20,014 nt of DNA, from the IMG/VR virus record IMGVR_UViG_3300044633_000060, positions 1 through 20,014 of that record; one strand, written 5' to 3'. This document shows positions 1,084 through 13,813 of the stretch, one piece after another (position 1 is the first letter of the stretch; the number at the start of each line of letters is the position of its first letter). The notes beneath the pieces are model-generated. The model did not search any database. It was not told the DNA's origin and saw nothing but the letters and a program-made list of their open reading frames with translations. Origin of the DNA: a virus. The translations under genes and the position numbers were made by a program.

Positions 1084-2064
1084 ATGACGCAACCCATCGA
1101 CATTATTAGCAGAGCATTAAAAGACATAGGCGCACTAGAGGCTGGTGAAACACCGACTCCAGAAGCCGCGACAGACGCTTTTGATATGCTTAATGACCTT
1201 ATTGACCAATGGTCGAATGAGGACATGATGGTTTTTAATGTGACAGAGATTATTTTTCCTGTCATAGCGGGTCAGACCCAGTACACGATTGGCCCTGTCG
1301 CGTCGACCGCTAACTTTATTGGCGCATCTTTCACAGGCTCAATTACTGGTGACATTCTTACTGTGAGCGCTATTGGCTCTGGCGCTGTGGCGCAAGGTCA
1401 AACTCTAAGTGGCACAGGAATCACCACAGGAACAAAGATTGTTGACTTCTTGACGGGCGCTGGCGGTAATATTAATGAGCAAGGCACATACAAACTCAAC
1501 ATTAGCCAGACAACGGCATCGACAACGATAACCGCTTATTACGAAAAGCCATTGCAGATTAACTCTGCTTTTGTGCGTATTAACACCAATTCAAATGGTC
1601 AGCCCATCATCAATGGTGGTTTGGACTATCCAATATCTGTTTTAGCGTTGCAAGACTACGAGATGATTGGTCTAAAAACGCTGAGTGGGCCGTGGCCAAA
1701 GGCGATTTACTACAACCCTGGCGCTGATACGGGCAATTTGTTTGTGTGGCCAAACCCCTCACAGGGCGAGATGCACTTGTTTGCCAACACCATTTTTAGC
1801 AGATACGGCACTTTGTACGACAACATCGTATTACCACAAGGCTACTCAATGGCGCTTCGTTGGTGCTTGGCAGAGCGTTTAATGCCTATGTATGGCAAGG
1901 CTAGTCAAGTACAAATAGCAATGATTAACGGCTTGGCGGCTCAATCAAAAGCAACTATTAAGCGCAACAACATGAGTCCATTGCAATCTGCAAGATACCC
2001 AGACGCTTTGATGAACTCACGCTCAAAAGACGCTGGTTGGATTCTTACTGGGGGCTTTGTCTAA
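1084..2064 (+). CDS. P22 gp4-like head-to-tail adaptor (tail accessory factor)
   Basis: The first 60 residues ([19 protein letters not shown], then a [16 protein letters not shown] helix) match the P22 gp4-type adaptor family, which binds under the portal ring and closes the packaged head. The order gp4-like then gp10-like supports this. P22 gp4 is about 166 aa; this protein is 326 aa. Part of the excess is a Gly/Thr-rich module at about residues 82-151 ([15 protein letters not shown] to TASTTITA) that recurs twice in the next gene and looks like an inserted decoration domain. The C-terminal part ([17 protein letters not shown]) is the usual helical end. The ATG lies 3 nt after the previous stop and the gene abuts the next one with no gap. 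Confidence 0.85.
1327..1536 (+). repeat. Inserted Thr/Gly-rich module, copy 1 (in gp4-like gene)
   Basis: This segment encodes about 70 residues with the order [43 protein letters not shown]. It is the most divergent of three copies. It interrupts the gp4-like core between an N-terminal helical part and the C-terminal part. It is a coding repeat, not a mobile element by itself. Confidence 0.75.
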
Positions 2065-3951
2065 ATGGCAGACTTTGGCTTTGTTGGCCCTTCCTACCCT
2101 GCGGCTTCGGTTTACCAAGACAGCAACGAGTGCATAAACTTTCTTCCAGAAGTTGACCCGCTCAAACAGCCTGGTGACCGAGGCGTGGTGGCGCTGTACC
2201 CAACGCCTGGTCTAACGATTAAAGCCATTCTTCCCAATCAACAAGAAGTCAGAGGCTTACGTACTCTTTCTGGTGGCACTCAAATGCTTGCCGTTTGTGG
2301 CGCTTATGTCTATGTGTTTAACAGTTTCTTGACCCCCACCATGATTGGTGAGATGAACAGCATAACGGGTCGTGTCACCATATCTGATAACGGAATAAAT
2401 GCTTATATCGTAGACGGCACATATCGCTACACATGGCGCATCGGAACTGTGACCGCGGCTGTATTTACAGGAACTGTATCTGGCACGACTTTGACTGTTA
2501 CTTCGGTTAATTCTGGAACTCTTGCGGTAGGTCAACATTTCTTTGCTGTGGGTGCGTTACAGGAAACAGTTATAACCGCCCTTGGAACGGGTACAGGCGG
2601 TACAGGCACATATACCCTTGGTCTATCGCAAACAATCGCTTCTAGCCAGATGTATACCTCTAGCCCAGGCGCTATTGTCACAGCGTCAATGTCTGGCACT
2701 ACTATGACTGTTACTGCGGTTTCTAGCGGTACTTTGTATGTTGGTCAAACCATTCAAGGCGCTGGCATCACAGTTCAAACCATCATTACGGCTTTGGGAA
2801 CTGGCTCTGGTGGCGCAGGAACTTACACAATAAATAACTCTCAGACAATTAGTTCACAGACTATGTACGCCCTTAATTGGACTGTACTGCCTTCTTCTGA
2901 TGGCGCGTTCTCAGGCGGTGAAACTTGTGACATTGTTGACAACTACTTTGTATATAACCGCCCAGAATCTCAGCAATGGGGCGCTTCTGGCGTTCTATCC
3001 CCTATTTCTGGCTCTACTTCATTTTCTAGCAAAGATGGTTCGCCAGATGATTTAATTGCGCTAATTGTTGACCACCGAGAGGTCTACCTAATGGGTGAGG
3101 CTTCTTCTGAGGTGTGGACTGATGTGGGCGGTGTGCCGTTCCCGTTCCAAAGAATCCCAGGCACTAACACCCAACACGGCATAGCGGCTAAATTTTCTGT
3201 TGCCCGTTTTGGGGATTCATTTTGTTATGTCTCTCGCAACAACAGAGGTCAATCACAGATTATGCAAATGAAGGGCTATGTGCCTACACGCATATCTAAC
3301 CACGCGGTCGAGAATTCGCTTGCTAACCAATATGTTGATAACGCTATTGCTTGGACTTATCAACTAGAGGGTCACGAATGTTATGTCGTGTCTTTCCCTA
3401 GCCTAGAGTTAACTTGGGCTTATGACCTAGCCTCTGGTATGTGGCACAAGTGGCTGTATACAGAGAATGACGGCACATATACCCGTCACAGAGGTAATTG
3501 CTGTGCGGTGTTCCAAGGTTTAGTTTTGGTGGGTGACTACGAAGATGGCTCAATCTACCAAATAGATAAAAACAACTACACAGATAACGGACAACATACC
3601 CGTAGGTTACGCAGAGCGCCACACTTGGTGTCTGACTTCCAAAGACAGTATTTTGATGAATTGCAGATTCAGTTTCAGCCTGGCGTTGGTCTTACTGGCA
3701 TTACTGTTCCCATAAATGATGCTGTTGTAGGCGCTGACCCACAGGCTATGCTTCGGTGGTCAAACGATGGCGGTTCTACATGGTCAAGTGAGCATTGGAC
3801 TTCTATCGGTTTAATTGGCAAATATAAGAATCGTGCCATTTGGCGCAGATTGGGTATGGCTAGAGATAGAGTGTTTGAAGTGGTTGTGAGCGACCCTATC
3901 AACGCTGTGATTATTTCGGCTAACCTAAAAGCAAGTGCGGGAGAAAACTAA
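2065..3951 (+). CDS. P22 gp10-like packaged-DNA stabilisation protein (neck/tail hub)
   Basis: This 628-aa protein begins GFVGPSYPAASVYQDSNECINFLPE, the usual opening of the phage stabilisation family (P22 gp10), which sits between gp4 and the tail needle in the particle. Later stretches (SWTVLPSSDGAF, then EVWTDVGG, FPFQRIPG, and a beta-propeller-like ending with WSNDGGSTWS) agree. P22 gp10 is about 470 aa. The extra length is largely two tandem copies of a 65 to 70-residue Thr/Gly-rich module at about residues 132-198 and 203-270, each with LTV, GQ, TxITALGTGxGGxGTY and SQT elements. The same module is in the gp4-like protein. The start follows the previous stop directly. Confidence 0.85.
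   Translation: MADFGFVGPSYPAASVYQDSNECINFLPEVDPLKQPGDRGVVALYPTPGLTIKAILPNQQEVRGLRTLSGGTQMLAVCGAYVYVFNSFLTPTMIGEMNSITGRVTISDNGINAYIVDGTYRYTWRIGTVTAAVFTGTVSGTTLTVTSVNSGTLAVGQHFFAVGALQETVITALGTGTGGTGTYTLGLSQTIASSQMYTSSPGAIVTASMSGTTMTVTAVSSGTLYVGQTIQGAGITVQTIITALGTGSGGAGTYTINNSQTISSQTMYALNWTVLPSSDGAFSGGETCDIVDNYFVYNRPESQQWGASGVLSPISGSTSFSSKDGSPDDLIALIVDHREVYLMGEASSEVWTDVGGVPFPFQRIPGTNTQHGIAAKFSVARFGDSFCYVSRNNRGQSQIMQMKGYVPTRISNHAVENSLANQYVDNAIAWTYQLEGHECYVVSFPSLELTWAYDLASGMWHKWLYTENDGTYTRHRGNCCAVFQGLVLVGDYEDGSIYQIDKNNYTDNGQHTRRLRRAPHLVSDFQRQYFDELQIQFQPGVGLTGITVPINDAVVGADPQAMLRWSNDGGSTWSSEHWTSIGLIGKYKNRAIWRRLGMARDRVFEVVVSDPINAVIISANLKASAGEN
2458..2658 (+). repeat. Inserted Thr/Gly-rich module, copy 2 (in gp10-like gene)
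   Basis: This segment encodes FTGTVSGTTLTVTSVNSGTL, then GQ and TVITALGTGTGGTGTY, ending SQTIASSQMYTS. It lies directly before copy 3 with a short linker (PGAI). It aligns along its length with copies 1 and 3 by eye. Confidence 0.8.
2671..2874 (+). repeat. Inserted Thr/Gly-rich module, copy 3 (in gp10-like gene)
   Basis: This segment encodes VTASMSGTTMTVTAVSSGTL, then GQTIQGAGITVQTIITALG, GSGGAGTY and SQTISSQTMYA. It is the closer relative of copy 2, which suggests tandem duplication inside the gp10-like gene. Confidence 0.8.
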
Positions 3952-13001: not shown

Positions 13002-13209
13002 CCGCAAAATCGTCTTTAGGCTTTGGCGCGTTCATGTACGCCCAGCCCGACCAACCGCCTTCTACGATTGGCATACAGTCAAACTTCAACATCGGCCCGT
13101 TTTTAGTCTCAATAACTGAACCAATACGCTGATAGCGGTTCTTTTCTTGGCCATCTTTGTTGGTGTATTTGCCAGTTATTACGCTGACTTCAAATTGTGT
13201 TTTACTCAT
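12988..13209 (-). CDS. Small conserved protein, possibly SSB-like
   Basis: This 73-aa beta-rich protein has GKYTNKDGQEKNRYQRIGSVIE and MLKFDCMPIVEGGWSGWAY, a pattern of small phage proteins coded beside recombination genes. It ends DDFADVDF, an acidic tail with terminal Phe like the protein-binding tails of single-strand DNA-binding proteins. With an annealase and an exonuclease in the same operon an ssDNA-binding or recombination-mediator role is plausible, but the protein is shorter than a standard SSB domain. It overlaps the exonuclease by 8 nt. Confidence 0.6.
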   Translation of the reverse strand: MSKTQFEVSVITGKYTNKDGQEKNRYQRIGSVIETKNGPMLKFDCMPIVEGGWSGWAYMNAPKPKDDFADVDF

Positions 13210-13813
13210 ATTTCATCCTTAGTTTTCCTAATTTGCTATCCAACTCCGCTAAGAATTGGGTAACCTCTTCTTCAAGCATTGCTACATAAGTTGGGTCAAA
13301 TTCGACCTTTTTTACGAACAATTGAAGTTTTTGTGGCAGGCGCGGGTCAAACGACACAAAGTCGCACCATTGGCGCTCACAGCACCGCATTTGCCATTGC
13401 ATCTGGGTTATGTACTTTGCCGGCACAGACTGAGACAAAAGCGTATCGATGTGCGTGGCCGTGTTGGGACACTTGACCTCTAACATACCGAAAAGCCCCA
13501 CCAGCCCGTCAGGAGACGCGCCTGCTTGCTCAAACTTTGGATGCTGTACAAACCCCACCTCTTCAACTAAAAGCCCGTGTAAAGCCTCGTACGCGCTTCT
13601 GGCCAAAGGCTCGGTTTCTGTACCCCATTGCATGGCGGCATTGGTAAATGACTCACCTTGGGTATTGGTAAGGCGCTCACAGATTAACTGCGCCATATAG
13701 TTGTCTCGGCTGGCGCTATAACCTGACTTGGTCTTGGCAATTACATCTGCCACCCGCGAGGCGGTGACTTTGCCTAATCTGGCGGCAAACCATTCTTCTG
13801 TGCGTTGTTCCAT
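13202..13813 (-). CDS. YqaJ/lambda-exonuclease-like recombinase nuclease
   Basis: This 203-aa protein opens RTEEWFAARLGKVTASRVAD, the family start, followed by WGTETEPLAR (Glu66), GASPDGLVG (Asp102), LEVKCPN (Glu112, Lys114) and QMQWQMRCC (Gln137). The D-x9-E-x-K spacing equals Asp119, Glu129 and Lys131 of lambda exonuclease. It is expected to be a 5'-3' double-strand exonuclease that makes 3' tails for the ERF annealing protein coded upstream. Its start shares one base with the upstream stop and its end overlaps the SSB-like gene by 8 nt. Confidence 0.9.
   Translation of the reverse strand: MEQRTEEWFAARLGKVTASRVADVIAKTKSGYSASRDNYMAQLICERLTNTQGESFTNAAMQWGTETEPLARSAYEALHGLLVEEVGFVQHPKFEQAGASPDGLVGLFGMLEVKCPNTATHIDTLLSQSVPAKYITQMQWQMRCCERQWCDFVSFDPRLPQKLQLFVKKVEFDPTYVAMLEEEVTQFLAELDSKLGKLRMKYE

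Follow-up and report, generated by a model that had tools for sequence, protein, structure and literature searches.

A small module shared by two neck proteins of a freshwater phage recurs in many unrelated virion proteins

We found that a module of 65-69 residues, carried once by the head-tail adaptor and twice in tandem by the head closure protein of a freshwater phage, is extra to the conserved cores of both proteins and recurs in virion proteins ranging from capsid to fibre. Promiscuous surface domains are a main route by which phages alter the contact of their particles with cells and mucus, and the well-described ones are Ig-like. A second such family, for which neither Pfam nor NCBIfam holds a model, would explain many length differences among structural genes, including those of the neck, which is rarely regarded as a binding surface. 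With a profile of the module, anyone could scan phage genomes for it.

The module lies outside the cores of two neck proteins

The window, by which we mean the whole 20 kb virus record analysed here, encodes two adjacent neck proteins on its plus strand. The head-tail adaptor (1084..2064, 326 aa) matched PHROG 12985 with an E-value of 8e-39 and, weakly, Ad3. In a structure search, its model matched adaptors of solved portal-tail complexes with a probability of 1.00 (best E 1.4e-7). Core fold and profile together place this protein among the P22 gp4-like adaptors. The same two lines of evidence identify the product of the following gene (2065..3951, 628 aa) as a P22 gp10-like head closure protein, Hc3: it matched PHROG 578 (E 3e-95), and its model matched P22 gp10 (8eap) with an E-value of 3e-23 and a TM-score by target of 0.79. 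Furthermore, its sequence matched the needle head protein of Pam1 (E 4e-15). Genes for a short tail fibre protein, a DNA ejection protein, a collar-type tail fibre and an endolysin are found downstream of Hc3 in the window. In the virions of P22-like phages the adaptor and Hc3 are neighbours, and each P22 virion contains 12 adaptors and 6 Hc3.

An earlier note on this DNA had claimed that a single repeated module occurs once in the adaptor and twice in tandem in Hc3, and our analysis agrees. The adaptor copy spans residues 83-151 (nt 1330..1536), and the Hc3 copies span residues 134-198 (copy 1, nt 2464..2658) and 205-269 (copy 2, nt 2677..2871), all on the plus strand. When the adaptor copy was used as a query against the window, both Hc3 copies were recovered (E 1e-8 and 7e-7) at 45-48% identity, and the three segments are copies of the same homologous module. 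A profile built from 47 diverse copies detected 1068 domains in 22,591 ORFs from the fetched loci and no domain once those ORFs had been reversed or shuffled, indicating that Thr/Gly-rich composition does not account for the signal. The nearly invariant columns of the module are two glycines and a Thr-x-Ile, as expected for the turns and core of a small beta domain.

In the AlphaFold2 models of both proteins, the module blocks are strand-rich and confident, with pLDDT mostly 84-96 (mostly 84-93 in the adaptor copy, 86-94 in Hc3 copy 1 and 90-96 in Hc3 copy 2), and the cores match module-free structures. The strands of the adaptor module are predicted at residues 80-99, 107-109, 118-122 and 134-152. 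The module is thus predicted to be a small, self-contained strand-rich unit. This is in line with the separate beta domain raised in the earlier note, in the form of predicted strand-rich blocks outside the gp4 and gp10 cores.

Comparison with relatives led to the same placement. Hc3 has 628 aa in the window versus 473-491 aa in most module-less relatives, with outliers of 456 aa in a Vibrio phage and 528 aa in MW202520; the adaptor has 326 aa versus 234-249 aa in module-less homologues. The module is missing from the Hc3 of Rhodoferax phage P26218, Xanthomonas phage PBR31, Pseudomonas phage PAE2, Vibrio phage 1.211.A, phage DSL-LC05 and four Manatee Spring phages. It is missing from the adaptors of P26218, MW202557, MW202483, DSL-LC05, PAE2 and Vibrio phage 1.211.A, all of which lack it in Hc3 as well. 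In MW202674 and MW202520 the adaptor is the only one of the two proteins to carry it. The boundary is clean: in the module-free Hc3 core of MW202674, NRYTLDVSTNT is directly joined to FTTLPNTDGA. The view that the gp4 and gp10 families usually lack the module, and that the extra lengths reflect its insertion, therefore holds, because homologues of normal length miss the segments at clean boundaries. We found neither models in which the module forms part of the core nor normal-length homologues that contain the segments. The module copies lie outside the conserved gp4- and gp10-like cores.

The module occurs in many other virion proteins

Occurrence of the module in unrelated virion proteins, a point on which the earlier note had suggested a profile search, was confirmed by such a search. 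Viral and bacterial loci yielded 67 clusters of host proteins, from capsid to fibre, that are mutually dissimilar outside the module at the thresholds used; 62 loci were returned by the scan of bacterial genomes, in which the query was a 5-sequence module alignment. According to PHROG and Pfam assignments, the tail and neck hosts include the sheath (PHROG 205, DUF3383), the neck terminator (PHROG 1876, PF23961), a major tail protein with an Ig-like domain (PHROG 807), baseplate wedge proteins (PHROG 6 and 438), a tail protein (PHROG 376) and several tail fibre or spike families. The head hosts include minor head (PHROG 2122), head (PHROG 1912), major capsid (PHROG 267) and head decoration (PHROG 49) proteins. 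A capsid-protease fusion (PHROG 133, PF25209) and virion structural proteins (PHROG 3645 and 587) also carry the module. In a structure search of the viral models, an HK97-type major capsid protein was matched at 30% identity over 152 columns.

Several genes of one locus can carry the module. In a Sulfuritalea bin (L272, 61-9473), five genes within 9.4 kb have one or two copies each, and the four that could be identified encode minor head, head, neck terminator and sheath proteins. On one Rhizobium freirei contig, the module is present in a PHROG 3645 protein, the terminator, the sheath and a baseplate wedge protein. Among copies in unrelated proteins, the closest pair (L270 and L312) has 81% nucleotide identity, suggesting that the domain has been transferred from gene to gene. 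A tblastn search of the GenBank phage collection with the two Hc3 copies returned one record, so this spread was observed mainly in metagenomic viruses and bacterial genomes. The module resembles an add-on that phages fit to various proteins of the particle.

Two or three module copies were also seen in cyanobacterial proteins, either cellular or viral, of ~3,900 to 4,300 aa (L276 3492-16199, L286, L293, L294 and L266). The window itself encodes, on the minus strand at 13202-13813, a RecE-like recombination exonuclease (PHROG 149, E 1e-48; PHROG 434), an enzyme that could aid the exchange of short gene segments among phages.

Comparison with known families

Searches of Pfam, NCBIfam and PDB sequences with single copies, an 18-copy profile and the 47-copy profile gave no match of note. 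The module did not match CAZy-type or lectin families, and nothing in Pfam was significant. No description of the module was found in the literature searched, whose coverage missed most subscription papers, making this weak evidence. Two candidate relatives were rejected. The weak, recurring match to MCE proteins (YebT, E 0.7 to 3.4; MlaD, E 0.04 in one copy) amounts at most to a glycine-turn motif common to both. For E1_FCCH (PF16190), hhalign gave a probability of 0.2% over one aligned column, a weak comparison in that the FCCH alignment had only 2 sequences, and a Pfam scan of the 47 module copies gave no FCCH match. A 1,905-aa protein of a Nitrosarchaeum bin (L280, 5208-10922) has an E1_FCCH-like domain immediately N-terminal to a module copy.

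Two PHROGs, 21413 and 38233, include the module as an unnamed stretch at about positions 397-466 and 554-624, and their profiles match nearly all of the scanned module host proteins. They are whole-protein families, one of them function-unknown and the other called tail fibre protein, rather than descriptions of a domain. The sole module-sized fold match in the PDB was chain 1 of 8eci from Arthrobacter phage Bridgette (82 columns, 22% identity, probability 0.97). Its E-value was only 0.13 and its rmsd 3.8, with no sequence-profile match, and we regard this model-based resemblance as no more than a lead.

In the summary of Fraser et al. 2006 given in PMC9022992, the Ig-like domains of tailed phages are of the Big_1, Big_2, I-set and FN3 types. 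That review places them in tail fibre, baseplate, tail tube, major capsid and Hoc proteins and considers them accessory, with a possible contribution to adsorption (PMC9022992; see also PMC10385173). A paper on the sheath also reports that they are regarded as accessory binding elements (PMC9230969). Like these domains, the module is small, predicted to be beta, and present in frame, with tandem copies, on several unrelated classes of virion protein. Unlike them, it is also found on adaptor, head closure, neck terminator, sheath and minor head proteins, and the 47 copies matched none of the Pfam Ig-like families (Big, I-set, FN3), apart from one copy that reached Big_1 at E 0.1. Our best reading is that the module is a promiscuous virion domain whose use is comparable to that of phage Ig-like domains, with no detectable sequence relation to them. 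It could go further and represent an unrecognised, widely shared family of the virion surface with a fold distinct from Ig-like domains, which tailed phages would place on many outward-facing proteins, several of them per particle, as a common binding coat; we consider this possibility doubtful.

History and selection of the module copies

Among the best 80 relatives listed for the window's Hc3, the adaptor has one copy and Hc3 has two wherever the genes are complete. When a module-less Hc3 was the query, the module was present in 77 of the adaptors and in none of the Hc3 at the best 80 loci listed. Because each list is limited to the 80 best loci of its scan and different scans share loci, the counts should not be read as natural frequencies. 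On a tree of 146 Hc3 cores, presence and absence of the tandem pair are explained by one change (support 95), with the 92 Hc3 carriers on one side of the tree and no loss among them. This pattern is most simply read as an older adaptor copy in this group, followed later by a single appearance of the Hc3 pair. The change in Hc3 was probably a gain, which is favoured over a single loss because the Hc3 of more distant phages has no module. For the adaptor copy number, well-supported branches force at least five changes. The Hc3 of some relatives has further module copies, or a different repeat nested within copy 2.

Median dN/dS was 0.08 for the adaptor module and 0.09 and 0.16 for the Hc3 copies, compared with 0.06 and 0.07 for the cores, all of these values being rough since synonymous sites are far diverged. 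The module is therefore under purifying selection.

The earlier note had also proposed that the module could move by recombination between the two neighbouring genes. Homologous copies in the adjacent adaptor and Hc3 genes are what one would expect if recent duplication or gene conversion had carried the module from one to the other. However, the copies in the window are 51-60% identical in pairwise nucleotide comparison, and no pair from the same genome was among the most similar module copies. Furthermore, on a tree of 301 modules, which is poorly resolved, copies group by position across genomes: Hc3 copy 1 needed 3 position changes versus 48 when positions were shuffled, and Hc3 copy 2 needed 6 versus 50. 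Grouping by position and the nucleotide identities argue against recent exchange between the two genes and, together with the single change in Hc3, leave this part of the note unsupported as far as recent movement is concerned. We consider it highly improbable that recent duplication or conversion gave rise to the copies.

Possible role of the module

We lean slightly towards the explanation that the module is a domain inserted in frame into many unrelated virion proteins of tailed phages, with an accessory role at the surface, namely weak, multivalent binding of polysaccharide. The adaptor would have held the module first; the tandem pair would later have arisen within an Hc3 core loop, with vertical inheritance from then on. 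If P22 stoichiometry holds, 12 adaptors with one copy and 6 Hc3 with two would place 24 copies on the neck, where they would be expected to point outward. By attaching weakly and at many points to polysaccharide of the cell surface or matrix, these copies would then keep the particle near its host, as has been proposed for Ig-like domains. As capsid, sheath and fibre proteins carry this domain too, polysaccharide binding fits better than a function specific to the neck. We infer that the module may bind cell surfaces or glycans, one of the roles suggested in the earlier note. Against this, a binding site is not obvious among the conserved residues, which are mostly the glycines and Thr-x-Ile of the fold, and the searches gave no CAZy-type or lectin match.

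The main rival is that the module acts as cement. The copies on the adaptor and Hc3, which adjoin in P22-like virions, would touch each other or neighbouring subunits and steady the head-tail joint against the pressure of the DNA, and copies elsewhere would brace the capsid or sheath. The retention of the module in 92 of 92 Hc3 carriers and the purifying selection on it fit such a structural role. Extra sheath domains have also been proposed as tail stabilisers (PMC9230969). However, the module hosts, tail fibres included, have very different neighbours, and the repeated changes of copy number in the adaptor are unexpected for a fitted brace; we judge this explanation unlikely. It could also be argued that the module is a tolerated insertion, spread by recombination of virion genes and with no selected role beyond folding quietly. 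Its many unrelated hosts and variable copy number agree with this, and purifying selection may reflect just the need to fold. Zero losses among the 92 Hc3 carriers and a dN/dS of 0.08-0.16 maintained across long divergence are difficult to reconcile with mere tolerance, which makes a neutral insertion quite improbable in our view.

Other insertions and the adaptor-Hc3 junction

The different repeat nested in the second Hc3 module (..GTGYAVNDTVTVLGGVYG..PATYTV..) is located between the ITALG and GTGTY elements, and its carriers include L136 5732-7966, L143 5732-7861, L163 1338-3467 and others. This nesting indicates that a loop of the module itself accepts insertions. The adaptor of Xanthomonas phage PBR31 (L088, 5045-5998) has a different insert of ~70 aa (..LGGDISGAGIPAGATVTAIGA..) at the same site as the module; only 23-39 columns of this insert aligned with the module, with hhalign probabilities of 21-38%. 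The adaptor site may be an insertion hotspot.

The junction between the two genes also varies. In MW202674, the adaptor and Hc3 genes are separated by an endonuclease gene (L084, 7416-7994). L091 has an endonuclease gene at the junction on the other strand, and in many other relatives a gap of 0.5-0.6 kb is present there. The adaptors at L084 6382-7365 and L085 7023-7991 are named 'portal protein' in GenBank, which looks like a misannotation. In L021 (2295-4277), L023 (4805-6787) and many others, Hc3 is ~33 aa longer than that of the window, with no extra module copy.
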